28,127 bases of DNA. Source: a virus. The DNA lies in the IMG/VR virus record IMGVR_UViG_3300035430_000018, positions 1 through 28,127 of that record; one strand, 5' to 3'. The stretch's first letter is position 1. Each line of letters opens with the position of its first letter. Below are positions 4,534 through 10,452 of this stretch, in pieces. The notes beneath the pieces were generated by a model. It did not search any database. It saw only the letters and a list, made by a program, of their open reading frames with translations, and was not told the DNA's origin. Made by a program: the position numbers and the translations under genes.

Positions 4534-7500
4534 TTAATTTTCAAATACAAGTTTTTCGCCGCTAATGCGTTCTAAAAGACGAATGGCTTTTAACATATCT
4601 ACGTTAATTCGCTTCCCATCTTTTTCAGAAAAATACGCCCAAGCCATATCTTCGGATGGTCCTTCCGGTATTAGATCAAAGTTGTGAGGGGATAATGTGG
4701 TAATGTTTCCCGCTTCATCCCTAACTTTCAATTCGGAACTAGACGAAACGTCCTCTGCATAAAGAACAATACCATCTGTAACGCTTCCAGTTGGAACCAC
4801 GCCGTTAAATAACGCTAAATTTCCTTGCGAAGATGCTGGAGTCAAGTTGCCGCCCACAAGCAAGTTGCCAGACGCATCTAGCGTCATTCGGTTAGTAGTG
4901 GCCGTAGCAAAATGAATGGGTGTATTGCCGTTGGTGTAAATTAAAGCGGCTGAAGTGTTCTGAAAGCTTAACGTTCCAAGATTAGCGTTAGAAAGCCCCG
5001 CCGTAGTCCCTGTGGCTGTTGAGCCGTATTGACCGATGGCTGTGCCTGTGTAGGTTGCACCGCTCCAGTAGTTTTGTACTTGAGCTTCAATTTGCGCTCG
5101 TCCTGTTGAGTCGTGGGTACTCATTGCTATTCTATCGTCAGCGCCAGAGGCTTTGACTTTCAGTCGATTCGCGACGCTATCTGTGGTGGTGTCTCCAATA
5201 GCGACAGTGCCATCGCTTGTTATGCGCATGCGCTCAGCGCTGCTTAATGTATAAAATTTAATAGAGTCTGTAGAAACCAAGCCTACATTAGCCGCACGCC
5301 AAACTACGGTATTATCTGGCGTTACCGCACCTGTCATTAAACGAGGGTCACCACCAGAAAACGTAAGATTGGCGTCAGCAGTAATTGCCGCAAAGGTAAA
5401 AAACTCTTCGTGATCAATTGTTGTTGGGGATGCGTCAACATCAGTTTGGCTAGTAATCCCTTTTGACGTTGTGCTATCGTAAACAAATAACTTTGAAGTG
5501 GCCCCCGCAGTCCCTATGCCGACATTGCCACCTGCTTCATTAAGCGTGAGGTTATACGCCGTGGCAGTACCGTCAGTCCGCTGTGCTTGTAGCCATGCGT
5601 GTCCATCAAAGGTGTTTGTGCCTGCAACAAGTCCGTAAGCTGTATCGCTGTTTGTCAGATATAACGGTGCGTTGGAGCTAACAGAGCCTAGTGCTGGAGC
5701 GTTAGCCGTACCTGCGCCACTAGACTGCAAACGAGCTTTAGGCAACGTAGCCCCCAGACCTAGCCGTGAAGTGCTTGCGTCCCAGAAGAAGTCATCAGAT
5801 GTTGCCGCCGAGTTTTCAAAGATTACATCGCCGCCACGAACATTAAAATCGCCATTAGACTGGAGTTGCATACGAACATCGCCAGCGGCCCTAGTACCCC
5901 ACCAGTTGCGATCATTAATAGGATCGTAAGTATAAACAACTTGGTTGCCACTACCGTCAGACGCCCTAGTCTGGATGTTTATTCCGCCGTATGTTGTTGT
6001 ACTGTCTCCATATAAAGACTGGTACAACGTAGGCTCAAAACTACCAGATGTTGCCCACGCCATACGCATACGAGAGCCGCTGTTATCACTCTCGACAAAC
6101 TCAAGGCCGGGAGTGGCACCAGTAATAAACACGTCTTCCGTAGTGCCATCTACAGAAAGGACTGTGTTAATAGTCCCTGTAAAATCTAAGTTTCCAGTAC
6201 CAGTAATGTCATTGCCGTTAAGGTCAAGATCACCACCAAGCTGTGGCGTAGTGTCCTCTACAACAGCAGTAATACCTGTACCAGCGACAGTGCCAAACGT
6301 AAGGTTTCCCGAACCGTCTGTGATTATCGACTGCCCGGAAGTGCCGTCTGCTGTTGGGTAGGTAAGGCCGTCAAGCGTTAGACCAGCAAGAGTATCAATT
6401 CTGCTCTCACCTGACGCGCTGTCGTGGTAGATTTCTAGATCCCCAACGGATTTTGATATTTTTACTTCTTCACCAGAAGCGGTGGCTGTATCTAAAGTAA
6501 CCAGTTTGGTTGATAGATTGACTGTAAAATCAAAAGTTTTTACAAAAGACCCGCCGCTAAGTTTTCTTTCAACCGATATTTCAGCTTCTGTATTAGGGCT
6601 ATCAAAAGTATAAGTAAACTGTGTTTCAGGCGTTGCAGGAGTAAAAGTTTCTTGGTCTTGAGAGCCTCGACCAATTGAAATCTTTTGATTGTCAAAAAGC
6701 TCAACATCGTGATTAAACGTGCGGCCCATGTACTTCCACTTTTTAGTGTTCTTGCCATCAAAAACAAAGATTCCGGTTTGTCCGGGCGCAAGGCGCTCAA
6801 GAATTACAGCGGGATTGTTTCCGGGCGATTCAGACAAGTTGTAAACAGCGAGGTATTTGAAATCCCCAACACCGCTTGACTCATTGTTTTTGATAAAGAT
6901 AACTCTGCCGTCGTTGACTTCAGAGCTAGCGCCTATATCTCTAAGGTGTACCGCCTGACCGAATGTGGTGCTGTGGGTTATGTCATAATAAGTTCGGGAG
7001 TCAGAAGAGCCAATTTCATAAGCTCCTGATCCTGTTCCACTTGGTGGAATAGTAATAACTTTAGTATCCCCAAAGCTAAACTTAGAAAAGCCGGTGTCGC
7101 CTTGGTATCCAGTGTAAGCAATAGGGTAGTTTTCAGACGTATTAAATAGCTGAATATCCTGAGTATCGTCGTAAAACCCAGTGGTATACCCGCTATAAAC
7201 TACATTATGAGGATTTGGTATGACACCTGTAAGTATGTAAAGAGGGAGGTCTAACCCGCTTATATCTTCGTCATTGAAGATGTTGCTGTTCTTAAACTCA
7301 CCAATTGATTTTTGAAAGTTTGTGGCTTTATCAATATTGATATAGGTTTGCTTCGGTCTAAATACGTAAGCGCCTTCGTTATTAAAGGTGTTAATAGAGT
7401 TGATGTCGATAATAGGCTGACTGAGCTTTACACCATAGTTAAAGCAGTTAGTCATTGTAAGGGTACGGATAGGCGCTTTATCTTCAGACACTTTAATTAC

Positions 7501-10452
7501 GTCGTCTGTAGTTGCGCCTGTGACTAACGTTACTGTCTTATTAATAAGGTCTATGGCGTAAGCAGAAGAAGCTAAAATAGCTCCATTCTGTCGAACAACA
7601 AACTCGTTATCTCTAAACGCTCGCACTCTTACGTATTCGTTGACGTTTAATCCACTGCTAAATGCGACTTTTTGATACTTTACAGTCGATATGACTACAG
7701 TATCGCCAGCAGTTGCTCCAGCATTTAAAGTTACTGTTTTAGCGTTTAAATCAACGGTGTAATCATCAGAATCAAGCGTTACTCCTTCCTTGGTAATAAC
7801 GATATAACTAGATACTGGAGGGCTAGTAAAAGTGTATGTAAAGACCGTTTGCCCAGAAGTTGCTGTAAACGACTGGCTGTCGTCACCTTCATTAGTAACA
7901 ACATAATTTGCAGGATTTATTAATGCCCAGTTTTTATATACGTCATATTCGTTTGTACCCCAATAGTTAGTAACTTTGAAGTGAACAAAATTATTCGACG
8001 CTTCAGTGCTATTAACAGTGCGGTTATAGTTTACTGCCGGGTTTGTAAAATCGTATGTAAATACTGTCTGGCTATTTGTTGCCGTGAAATACTGCGCCCT
8101 TCCGCTTTTTATAGTAGAGACGCCTTGAGTTTTTACGTTTTCCGTATAAACATTATCTAGCAATACTTGTTGAAGCGTTCCTTCTTCAGCGTAAAAAAGG
8201 TGCTCAGAACAGTTTTGGATTGCCGTGTCTCTTATAGAGACATTAACAAATTGGCCTTCATCCCATCTCACACCGTACTTAAAGGAATCAATTAGTCCTG
8301 CTTTGATATTCCAGAGACCTGCAAAAAAACCTGTTGCTCCAGACACGCCAGTACCATGACTCGCTATACGCATCCTTACGCGGTCTCCAGTAGTAGCCGC
8401 CGAAGTTAGAGTAATAGTTTTGGTAGCTGTATTAATGCTGTAGTCAGCAGGATCTACAAGTTCTTCTGTGCCGCCACTAGGCCGCAGATATACTTCAATT
8501 TCTGATTTTTGTGTAACTCTTTCAAAGTCATAAACAAAATCTGATTGTGGTGAGTTAGCAGAAGCTACCGTAATCGTTGTTTCAGCACTTGGGCCATGAA
8601 TAAAACACTCATCCATAGAAAAGAACCAGTTGTTTCTGGCCCTTACACCACTACCTTGTGGATTAAACTGCTTAAATGCACAGTTGCTAAATGACATTGC
8701 TGGGCAAGACTGCGACGTTATAATGTAACCGTCGTTATCCGCAAAGAACGTCATGTTTTCACCACGGAAAGCTCTTGCGTCTGTACCACCACTAGCGGCT
8801 GTAAATACACCTACTGGCTCAACAATGATTCCGTCGCCAGCAGAAGTTGACTCAAGAACAGATCCGTAAATACGTTGAGGGGTAGCTTCAACTCTGGCTA
8901 TATCCGCAATCGCTAAACGGCCAGTGCCTAAGAATACAAATCGACCGTCACGATTGGCGACTGTAAATGAAATTGAAGCACCATTGGCAGGAGCGGTAGT
9001 AAACGTAACAGTACCACCAGCGTTAGAGCCAACGCCTGATACTGTGTAGTCAGTGGTAAGCTCTTGAGTAACGTCGTCTACTTTTACTATTAAGTTAGAA
9101 TCCTTTTCTATAAACCAGTCATAACTAAAGTCATCCTCTATCCCGTCGCCAGTATGTGAAGCGCTAGATCCTTGGAAATCAGGGTTGTCTGTTGCGTCAT
9201 GGTACAAGCGAAGCGTGGTGTACTTGTAGTGACCTTCTGGGAAGAAGATAGTCTGGATTTCACGATTAGACGCATAGTTAATTGCGTTCTGGATAGCAGT
9301 CGTATCGTCAGTTGTGCCGTCACCTGTAGCGCCAAAGTCTTTAACGTCAAGATAGGTAGAGCTAGGCATGTCCTCGAACGCGGCAACGCCAGCGCCATTG
9401 GTCATCAATACCTGTCCGTCTGTACCGTCTGTGCTTGTGTACGTTACAGCGCCTAAAGTTGCACCGGCAAATGTGGGGCTATCAGTAGTAGCTACGCCTT
9501 GGTTAAGCGCTTTTACAGCGGCTTCATTGGTTAGCTCACTGTCCATTACAGCGCCAGCGGTTGTGACGTTAAGAGTGTCTGTTACGTCTGCGCCAGCTTC
9601 GATACCGTCTAGCTTAGCTCCATCGGTAGCTACGTCACGTCCATCAAAGGTGCTGTTAGTCGTTATAGGGCCAGTCATTGCACCGCCGGATCTAGGCAAT
9701 GCCGCATCTGCTGTCGTGCCTTGTGCGGCAGTAGCGTAGTCCGTCTCATCGAACGCTTTGACTTGATCTAAGTTAGTAACCTCGCTGTCCATCAATGCGC
9801 CGGCCGCAGTGACGTTAGCCGTATCAGTTACGTCAGCGCCAGTCTCGATAGTATTTAGCTTTGCAGTATTGGCTGTTAAGTCTGCGCCTACCTCTTGCAG
9901 TGCGCCTTCTACGTTGTCAGACGTGTAGTAGTTTCCAGCATCACTTATTGTTACCGAATCGGCAGTTGCAGTTACAGTAGCGCTAGCAACATCAACCGCG
10001 CCGGTAGCATCAAACTTTACAAACTTGTTCGCACGAGTCGCCGCCTCGGGTAGCTCCATAGAGATAGAGTCAGAGTCGGTAATAGGCTTGCGAATAGACT
10101 GAGAGAATGCACGATCAGTTTGCTCGCCTGCTAACCACAACTCATCGAAGTCGCTATTAACTTCAGAGGCAAGAAAGTCACCAGAGTTTGTGTAGTTCTG
10201 GGTTCGCGAGTAGGGCATATCCCTGTAAAGGGTAAGGATGTCGCCTGTGGTCGCGCCAACGGTAAGGGTTACGTTACCCCCATTGTCGTTGCCTACGTTC
10301 GACACAGTGTAATCTGTGCCCTCTGAGAGCGCCGTACCGTTTTTTAAGACAACAATGTGGTCTTTGTCTACGATCTCAAACGTATATGCGAATACTGTCT
10401 GACCAGAAGTCGCGGTGTATTGGTTACGGCTTGTGTTGTCTGCTACGGTCAT
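4534..10452 (-). CDS. tail fibre/tailspike protein, 1972 aa
   Basis: The first about 150 residues match the T7 gp17-type attachment domain (QYTATSGQTVFAYTF, then SRTQNYTNSGDFLASEVNSD). Residues about 198-320 contain two copies of a GADVTDT...AGAxMDSExTN repeat. At about 367 a pectate-lyase-3 type beta-helix begins (VKDFGATGDGTTDDTTAIQN). The spike region is interrupted by about six further copies of the N-terminal beta module. The last third has fibre repeats such as NVGIGTAGATSKLFV, ending in a short helical segment (MLKAIRLLERISG). No S74 autochaperone motif is seen at the C-terminus. It would bind, and perhaps degrade, a surface polysaccharide. It follows the gp16-like gene by one base, as in T7-like order, and is far longer than T7 gp17 (553 residues). 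Confidence 0.93.
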   Translation of the reverse strand: MTVADNTSRNQYTATSGQTVFAYTFEIVDKDHIVVLKNGTALSEGTDYTVSNVGNDNGGNVTLTVGATTGDILTLYRDMPYSRTQNYTNSGDFLASEVNSDFDELWLAGEQTDRAFSQSIRKPITDSDSISMELPEAATRANKFVKFDATGAVDVASATVTATADSVTISDAGNYYTSDNVEGALQEVGADLTANTAKLNTIETGADVTDTANVTAAGALMDSEVTNLDQVKAFDETDYATAAQGTTADAALPRSGGAMTGPITTNSTFDGRDVATDGAKLDGIEAGADVTDTLNVTTAGAVMDSELTNEAAVKALNQGVATTDSPTFAGATLGAVTYTSTDGTDGQVLMTNGAGVAAFEDMPSSTYLDVKDFGATGDGTTDDTTAIQNAINYASNREIQTIFFPEGHYKYTTLRLYHDATDNPDFQGSSASHTGDGIEDDFSYDWFIEKDSNLIVKVDDVTQELTTDYTVSGVGSNAGGTVTFTTAPANGASISFTVANRDGRFVFLGTGRLAIADIARVEATPQRIYGSVLESTSAGDGIIVEPVGVFTAASGGTDARAFRGENMTFFADNDGYIITSQSCPAMSFSNCAFKQFNPQGSGVRARNNWFFSMDECFIHGPSAETTITVASANSPQSDFVYDFERVTQKSEIEVYLRPSGGTEELVDPADYSINTATKTITLTSAATTGDRVRMRIASHGTGVSGATGFFAGLWNIKAGLIDSFKYGVRWDEGQFVNVSIRDTAIQNCSEHLFYAEEGTLQQVLLDNVYTENVKTQGVSTIKSGRAQYFTATNSQTVFTYDFTNPAVNYNRTVNSTEASNNFVHFKVTNYWGTNEYDVYKNWALINPANYVVTNEGDDSQSFTATSGQTVFTYTFTSPPVSSYIVITKEGVTLDSDDYTVDLNAKTVTLNAGATAGDTVVISTVKYQKVAFSSGLNVNEYVRVRAFRDNEFVVRQNGAILASSAYAIDLINKTVTLVTGATTDDVIKVSEDKAPIRTLTMTNCFNYGVKLSQPIIDINSINTFNNEGAYVFRPKQTYINIDKATNFQKSIGEFKNSNIFNDEDISGLDLPLYILTGVIPNPHNVVYSGYTTGFYDDTQDIQLFNTSENYPIAYTGYQGDTGFSKFSFGDTKVITIPPSGTGSGAYEIGSSDSRTYYDITHSTTFGQAVHLRDIGASSEVNDGRVIFIKNNESSGVGDFKYLAVYNLSESPGNNPAVILERLAPGQTGIFVFDGKNTKKWKYMGRTFNHDVELFDNQKISIGRGSQDQETFTPATPETQFTYTFDSPNTEAEISVERKLSGGSFVKTFDFTVNLSTKLVTLDTATASGEEVKISKSVGDLEIYHDSASGESRIDTLAGLTLDGLTYPTADGTSGQSIITDGSGNLTFGTVAGTGITAVVEDTTPQLGGDLDLNGNDITGTGNLDFTGTINTVLSVDGTTEDVFITGATPGLEFVESDNSGSRMRMAWATSGSFEPTLYQSLYGDSTTTYGGINIQTRASDGSGNQVVYTYDPINDRNWWGTRAAGDVRMQLQSNGDFNVRGGDVIFENSAATSDDFFWDASTSRLGLGATLPKARLQSSGAGTANAPALGSVSSNAPLYLTNSDTAYGLVAGTNTFDGHAWLQAQRTDGTATAYNLTLNEAGGNVGIGTAGATSKLFVYDSTTSKGITSQTDVDASPTTIDHEEFFTFAAITADANLTFSGGDPRLMTGAVTPDNTVVWRAANVGLVSTDSIKFYTLSSAERMRITSDGTVAIGDTTTDSVANRLKVKASGADDRIAMSTHDSTGRAQIEAQVQNYWSGATYTGTAIGQYGSTATGTTAGLSNANLGTLSFQNTSAALIYTNGNTPIHFATATTNRMTLDASGNLLVGGNLTPASSQGNLALFNGVVPTGSVTDGIVLYAEDVSSSSELKVRDEAGNITTLSPHNFDLIPEGPSEDMAWAYFSEKDGKRINVDMLKAIRLLERISGEKLVFEN
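6440..10422 (-). repeat. about seven diverged copies of a beta module inside the fibre gene
   Basis: Copies of about 65-75 residues share a start like (Q)xFTATxxQTVFTYTF and an end like TVxLxxKTVTLxxGATTGDxVxI. Approximate nucleotide spans are 10422-10219, 9150-8951, 8568-8366, 8100-7886, 7883-7672, 7671-7468 and 6655-6440. The first is the N-terminal attachment domain; copies four to six are in tandem. Identity at the DNA level is low by eye, so the duplication is old or selection acts on protein structure. Boundaries are estimates. Confidence 0.7.
9502..9862 (-). repeat. two-copy GADVTDT repeat in the fibre gene
   Basis: Two copies of about 39 residues, spaced 82 codons apart, read KLNTIETGADVTDTANVTAA / KLDGIEAGADVTDTLNVTTA and continue GAxMDSExTN...VKA. 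Such GADVT repeats are common in trimeric fibre shafts of marine phages. They lie between the attachment domain and the beta-helix. Confidence 0.8.

Follow-up and report, generated by a model that had tools for sequence, protein, structure and literature searches.

The window analyzed here, a virus record of 28,127 bases, encodes a T7-like tailspike in which a small β-jellyroll module of the virion-attachment type is present at the base and again within loops of the β-helix core. There are five solid additional copies, located at sites designated S1, S2, S3 (outer copy S3-A and inner copy S3-C), and S7, and one weak additional copy (S3-B). We propose that the loop-inserted modules are accessory domains that shape the binding surface of the spike, a reading to which we assign a probability of about 0.5.

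The structural genes of the window are carried on the minus strand in a T7-like order: terminase, portal/head-tail adaptor, major capsid protein, two tail proteins, internal virion proteins, fiber, holin, and endolysin. The fiber gene comes after an internal virion protein gene, as is expected for this order, and the length and location previously given for it correspond to a single minus-strand open reading frame (ORF) (Table 1). Residues 1-124 match a PHROG tail protein family (phrog_1640, E = 4e-39), and a further PHROG tail protein family matches residues 188-264. The C-terminal third of the protein (residues 1338-1972; window 4537-6441) is rich in repeats of the NVGIGT and DASTSRLGLG types. 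In six relatives (L002, L003, L004, L021, L024, and L128), the C-terminal stretch resembles a chaperone of the Peptidase_S74 type, and the end of the window protein differs from it.

Table 1. Tailspike gene of the window and the modules recognized within its product.
Feature	Residues	Window coordinates	Strand	Basis or score
Tailspike/tail fiber gene	1972 aa	4534..10452	-	ORF, PHROG tail protein matches, T7-like gene order
Base module, virion-attachment type	11-80	10213..10422	-	LME-1 orf22 match
Pectate-lyase-type β-helix core with inserts	about 366-1121	7090..9357	-	PF12708 and AlphaFold model
Inserted module S1	432-500	8953..9159	-	51.7 bits
Inserted module S2	626-698	8359..8577	-	36.7 bits
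S3 outer module A, left part	787-806	8035..8094	-	23.4 bits, confined to profile positions 1-20
S3 middle module B, left part (weak)	807-858	7879..8034	-	16.8 bits joined with right part; pLDDT about 45
S3 inner module C, complete	860-926	7675..7875	-	69.5 bits alone; pLDDT about 97
S3 middle module B, right part (weak)	927-945	7618..7674	-	as for left part
S3 outer module A, right part	947-992	7477..7614	-	profile 20-60, 28.4 bits alone; strands at pLDDT 83-89
Inserted module S7	1267-1336	6445..6654	-	50.0 bits

The base module has a homolog in a solved tail, LME-1 orf22 (PDB 9efk_AE), which matches fiber residues 5-106 with an E value of 1.4e-11. For the core, the Pfam family PF12708 matches residues 369-411 (E = 4.2e-11; 43.5 bits versus a cut-off of 27). 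An AlphaFold model of residues 366-1345, made with 14 aligned sequences, has a mean pLDDT of 71.9. Residues 1-756 of this first model superpose on solved β-helix enzymes and spikes with Z scores of about 26-32 (VIA), and the AlgE6, Sf6, and CBA120 TSP3 spikes give values of about 29-32, in a list that is dominated by the helix core and is uninformative on the inserts. The top Foldseek match of the same model in the PDB was a GH110 galactosidase (8yk1_A, E = 3.5e-10), a likeness that was set aside in view of its gapped alignment and its rmsd of 26. A search of a viral structure library returned 150 matches at E values up to 0.001, mostly spikes and tail proteins and given without ranges. Among the carbohydrate-binding families of Pfam, none reaches its cut-off (CBM_X2, 15.1 bits versus 28.9).

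The internal copies were detected with two profiles. One drew exclusively on six relatives (L002-L007), whose base domains were used without that of the window, and was searched against window residues 101-1972. It matches S1 (E = 1.3e-7), S2 (3e-4), the inner S3 copy (8.5e-11), and the right part of S3 (2.3e-5), where the best of 500 shuffled controls scores 6.8 bits. This profile misses S7 (-2.8 bits), and it matches the left piece of S3 only in part, with 5.4 bits, which is in the range of the shuffles. The other profile was refined in rounds over the fetched loci, the window excluded, and its seed contained five window copies without S7 and the left S3 piece. In its last round, this profile, which was trained on the same spike family, yields 69.3 bits for the base, 51.7 for S1, 36.7 for S2, 13.3/55.9/16.9 for the S3 pieces, and 50.0 for S7, compared to 7.9 for the best of 500 shuffles and 5.9 for the best reversed ORF. 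Moreover, in the first model each of the six internal pieces has, at the corresponding position, a short helical turn and then a strand. Thus, the copies score above background, and the count of about six further modules made in the earlier note was a fair one.

It might be argued that a sequence this rich in Thr, Gly, and Val produces such matches by chance, or that the repeats are an artifact of assembly. We give this explanation almost no credence, given the shuffled and reversed controls, the structural match of the inner copy described below, and the presence of the same architecture in contigs from independent metagenomes.

In Pfam, the family for the T7 gp17 N-terminal domain (PF03906) matches S1 alone, with 13.9 bits versus a gathering threshold of 25.2, and is not listed for the base or for the whole protein at E values up to 1. 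Likewise, neither the protein nor any of the seven copies matched an Ig-like family of Pfam at E values up to 1, in a search that a weak match could escape. Residues 865-922 of the inner copy (window 7687-7860) give a weak match to DUF2460 (E = 0.0028; 17.6 bits versus 30.4), which may mean that further tail proteins use this fold.

At S3, three copies had been described as lying in tandem. A simple tandem arrangement is rejected and nesting is preferred because the two outer pieces cover complementary parts of the profile. When joined at residues 806 and 947, they form one complete module (profile positions 1-60) that scores 57.0 bits, whereas controls in which one half was shuffled and the best join was taken reach at most 37.3 bits (n = 80). 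The complete copy C is located between these left and right pieces. The remainder of the site, comprising approximately residues 806-856 and 927-946, scores 16.8 bits when joined, compared to 12.5 for the best of 60 shuffles, and is a weak candidate for a third module, B. A two-level nest is also present at S3 of L116, a separate contig, with an outer module of 61.6 bits when joined and an inner module of 43.2 bits. A second model, covering residues 783-996 (mean pLDDT 75.6), assigns pLDDT values of about 97 to C, 83-91 to the outer pieces of S3-A, and about 45 to B, and the strand order of both S3-A pieces is that of C. These findings strongly suggest that S3 consists of one module split around another. 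Joining was also evaluated for the adjacent S1a and S1b copies of L012, L014, L015, and L016, in which it shifts the score by +2.5, -2.4, +2.5, and -2.0 bits, respectively.

In the second model, the inner copy of S3 superposes equally on the T7 gp17 N-terminal domain and on domain XD2 of the CBA120 tailspike TSP4. Comparisons with gp17 yield a Z score of 9.0 for 7boz_b (rmsd 2.4 over 67 residues) and 9.7 for 7ey9_a, while TSP4 (7rfv, chain residues 187-250) yields 9.2 with an rmsd of 1.8 over 64 residues. Resemblance to gp17 had been proposed for the internal copies in general, and is borne out here for S3-C, the internal copy that these superpositions cover. Other solved relatives of this fold include LME-1 orf22 (Z 11.3), HRP29 (10.5), cyanophage P-SCSP1u (10.0), the baseplate cup of KP1 (8.7), and T4 gp10 (5iv5_AC, 6.3). 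A profile made from 14 copies, when compared with solved chains, recovers LME-1 orf22 (4.6e-8), the P-SCSP1u fiber (4.8e-4), and residues 118-168 of a K1-specific depolymerase (9k4a, 4.8e-5).

According to published work on TSP4, its XD2 and XD3 domains are jellyrolls in which the first strand runs antiparallel to, and next to, the last, and they serve as docking motifs for trimers (PMC8825819). With end strands arranged in this manner, a module of this type could be plugged into a loop. One possibility is therefore that the internal copies of the window spike are docking sites for further trimeric proteins, which would generate a branched receptor-binding complex like those built on the XD2 and XD3 domains of T4 gp10 and TSP4. 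The superposition on XD2 is as good as that on gp17, and the best Foldseek match for the S3 model is TSP4 (7rfo_B, E = 2.1e-5). However, XD2 and XD3 lie in line at the N terminus and present trimeric surfaces, whereas the copies examined here are in core loops. Furthermore, PHROGs revealed no second receptor-binding gene among the 18 ORFs scanned in the window fragment, and copy number varies among relatives without visible partner genes. We therefore consider docking to be unlikely. An elaborated version holds that a mobile jellyroll entered nine loops and then the loops of its own copies (A[B[C]]), with the exposed copies serving as docking pegs for a side-branched array, and this version we judge to be slightly less likely still.

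The distribution of the inserts was established using 16 spikes that share the core, namely that of the window and those of L002, L003, L010, L011, L012, L014, L015, L016, L020-L024, L116, and L128. Family membership was assigned from BLAST and alignment. Duplicate contigs were counted once, and L001, L008, L009, L013, L017-L019, L125, L126, L129, L133, and L135 were excluded for this reason. Because the contigs end there, L015 was scored at S1 alone and L016 was not scored at S5-S8. Inserts occupy nine loop sites in total: S1 in 10 of 16 spikes, S2 in 6 of 15, S3 in 2 of 15, S4 in 3 of 15, S5 in 2 of 14, S6 in 3 of 14, S7 in 1 of 14, S8 in 2 of 14, and S9 in 1 of 15. The number of internal copies per spike ranges from zero to six, and double inserts occur in L012, L014-L016, L021, and L022. 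For example, S1 is empty in L003, L020, L021, L022, L023, and L128, and S2 is empty in L002, L010, L011, L012, L020, L023, L024, L116, and L128. Thus, the copies in the spike region are indeed inserted domains, at sites that are vacant in the core alignment of relatives, and the 16 spikes differ both in the number of inserts, a comparison suggested in the earlier note, and in their placement. The fewest changes that explain this pattern on the core tree are 17 over the nine sites, a count in which gain and loss are not distinguished.

The module-bearing core is combined with various bases and tails. Six fibers (L010, L011, L012, and L014-L016) begin with MTDYTKTTDF or MSNYTKTTDF, unlike the window base. 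Four others (L021, L024, L116, and L128) have a short start, MALTKV, and the start of L022 is of another kind. The bases that accompany the module are therefore of at least four kinds, and base type requires four changes on the core tree (L020 omitted). The neighbor of the L116 spike is a gene with matches to tail sheath families, and that of L128 encodes a protein with matches to fiber and baseplate families, whereas the L023 spike comes after a T7-like internal virion protein. Thus, the spike core crosses tail types, from T7-like to contractile. Upstream of the L022 spike, an ORF at 439-2625 partly resembles by eye the internal virion protein of the window, and carries a YHGT...GVYTS stretch that may resemble ADP-ribosyltransferase-type motifs.

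Searches for the core elsewhere returned little. No isolate phage carrying it was found, with no match for the L023 core and with 47 records for the L020 core, none of which covers 80% (the best covers about 53% at 26% identity). A tblastn search of phages with the whole protein gave 12 records, again none at 80% coverage. A scan of genome contigs gave 18 loci, none of them close, the best of which by E value has 49% identity over the helix start. A scan with the C-terminal core alignment A1 retrieved only two contigs, both already in the set.

It is possible, though distinctly less probable than a role in binding, that the spike merely tolerates the inserts as passengers or passive spacers, where an easily inserted fold has been left in loops by recombination and adds little beyond bulk or stability. 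Presence is patchy at eight of the nine sites, and internal copies are absent from the available sequence of L020 and of L023, the latter of which has a gp17-like base. In addition, the close pair L011 and L012, which share 58-60 of every 60 bases over long stretches, differ at S5, where the alignment shows a clean gap about 190 bases long. The patchy sites other than S1 fit passengers as well as they fit function. In contrast, S1 is retained in 10 of the 16 spikes and has a single line of descent in eight, and repeated gain or loss of inserts may itself indicate selection. Also, the fetched loci contain 96 further pectate-lyase-type ORFs with 300 or more residues, of which nine have a module before the helix and none has one after the helix start, which argues that insertion is not simply easy everywhere. 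In the core family, a module is present after the helix start in 14 of 16 spikes, a proportion that is biased by L116 and L128, which had been retrieved through a module query, and that becomes 12 of 14 when these two are omitted.

The module is also present outside of spikes, as it is carried by non-spike proteins of approximately 940-970 residues. These are encoded by L123, L124, L127, and L130-L132, and have one module near the C-terminal quarter (about residues 712-795). In addition, L010 (63-644), L014 (3-416), and L134 (6767-7387) encode a separate small ORF with one copy (VPSPGTTTLNYTF...). The three versions are nearly identical and have no PHROG match, and that of L010 is located directly upstream of the terminase gene.

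The ancestry of the copies was examined with a tree of 52 copies and 69 columns, in which many forks are unresolved and L116 S1 is not included. The S1 copies of eight fibers form one clade (support 97/97), whereas L024 S1 is on a long branch outside of it. S1 is the only site with a long shared history. S7 of the window forms a clade with L010 S5, L011 S5, L011 S8, and L012 S8 (100/98), and thus a single module subtype occupies three sites (S5, S7, and S8). Grouping all S2 copies into one clade is not rejected (p-AU 0.26), yet this clade is absent from the best tree.

We also considered whether the internal copies arose from the fiber's own base module by repeated duplication inside the gene, which is the origin that had initially been suggested. 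S3-C is 51% identical to the window base over aligned residues, and there is one 33-base family of DNA similarity (70-73% identity) between the base and two S3 pieces. This family is the full extent of self-similarity at the DNA level, and recent duplication was rejected as a candidate on this basis. Tree tests oppose this origin: placing all seven window copies in one clade is rejected (log-likelihood 156 lower, p-AU 6e-99), as is one clade for the six internal pieces, and grouping S3-C with bases is disfavored (p-AU 0.015). Moreover, the base, S1, and S7 have closest kin in other phages, with best identities of 96%, 62%, and 68% (the last to L010 S5, at a different site), compared to at best 51%, 31%, and 36% with other copies of the window. 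For S2, pairwise identity gives a near tie between the closest kin inside and outside the window. Inserts are also found on spikes whose bases are unrelated. The only base-like internal copy in the set is L010 S4a, which is 65% identical to the window base and resides in a spike without such a base.

Judged from these sequence comparisons, own-base duplication is largely refuted, and we regard it as very unlikely. Closer kin elsewhere together with rejection of the clades instead point to exchange between phages, with no sign of the base as a donor. Hence, the earlier proposal that the attachment-type module is reused stands with regard to the fold of the inserted domains, but not with regard to their source in the base of the same fiber. 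Some copying between internal sites is nevertheless likely, considering the subtype shared by S5, S7, and S8 and the 48% identity of S3-A and S3-C, which have identities of 45% and 52%, respectively, to L116 S3-C.

Returning to the accessory-domain reading, we propose that the β-helix of a T7-like tailspike, of the type found in sugar-degrading enzymes, acquired in several of its loops a phage β-jellyroll module, the same kind of domain as is found at the base of T7-type fibers and as XD2 and XD3, the docking domains of T4 gp10 and TSP4. Because its first and last strands lie side by side, this fold could enter a loop, and even a loop of another copy, and leave the host fold unbroken. Inserts would be gained and lost through recombination among phages that share hosts, with some internal copying from site to site. 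In each chain of a presumed trimer, the inserts would constitute lateral accessory domains that shape or extend contact with cell-surface polymers.

The insertion domain of KP34gp57, a β-barrel, is located 46 residues into the helix and helps form the catalytic pocket (PMC10653864). S1 lies near the helix start, 66 residues in, and may serve in the same manner as the pocket-walling insertion domains of Klebsiella depolymerases. The likeliest role appears to be an accessory one, in binding or in shaping the groove, at about even odds, because S1 occupies the position of a depolymerase insertion domain and the copies reside in core loops. For the latter reason, of the three functions that had been suggested for the internal copies, merely making the shaft longer fits least well.

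The family constitutes a natural insertion series, in which one spike core carries or lacks the module at nine places and is joined to various bases and tails. This series makes it possible to test how phages add domains to β-helix spikes without breaking them, and whether inserts alter spike binding. It can also be asked whether a single reusable part underlies the attachment fold of T7 fibers, the docking domains of T4 gp10, and the depolymerase insertion domains. The differing insert sites hint at how phages rebuild their host-binding parts. Each ingredient of this architecture is known. However, in a literature search with limited reach into subscription papers, we found no description of this spike family, of nested or multi-site gp17-like inserts, or of a multi-site, partly nested attachment-type jellyroll in a spike core.

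Ig-like domains are spread among phage structural proteins, and both these and BACON domains are mostly terminal or in line. Like the module described here, they are small β domains of variable number, but their fold class differs. BACON repeats in particular are a promiscuous small β domain that occurs in variable number in phage proteins (PMC6949934). Ongoing domain exchange in phage spikes and fibers is well established (PMC10684548), but that account is not known to include movement of one module between loop sites of one spike family, or nesting.

Among known systems, the T7 gp17 N-terminal domain and its kin (LME-1 orf22, the P-SCSP1u fiber, and the Peru-2 hybrid tailspike) are homologous to the window base and share the fold of the inner copy. 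In these proteins the domain is located at the base, whereas the window fiber has a base copy and further copies between residues 432 and 1336. The tailspike of Vibrio phage Peru-2 is described as a T7-like base joined to a β-helix spike (PMC13320782), and the window spike is similar in this regard. The XD2 and XD3 domains of T4 gp10 and of CBA120 TSP2 and TSP4 also share the fold of the inner copy, and likewise occur as several copies per spike protein. As described, XD domains precede the spike in line and bind other trimers (PMC8825819, PMC11721090), and CBA120 forms a branched complex (PMC11721090). In contrast, the window copies are inserted into loops and are partly nested, in a 28-kb fragment in which no partner gene was recognized.

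Depolymerases offer a parallel in placement. Their extra β domains are reported to leave the β-helix at mid-helix or close to either cap 1 or cap 2 (PMC10653864, PMC13385381), and DepoCatalog classes 2A-2D distinguish the positions of insertion domains, including double ones (PMC13385381). The insertion domain of KP34gp57 resembles S1 in position, and LKA1 gp49 is a further enzyme with such a domain. Depolymerases are described as having one or two insertion domains each, whereas four sites are occupied in the window protein and nine across its family. Unlike depolymerase insertion domains as described, all inserts in this family belong to one module family, which is shared with the base.
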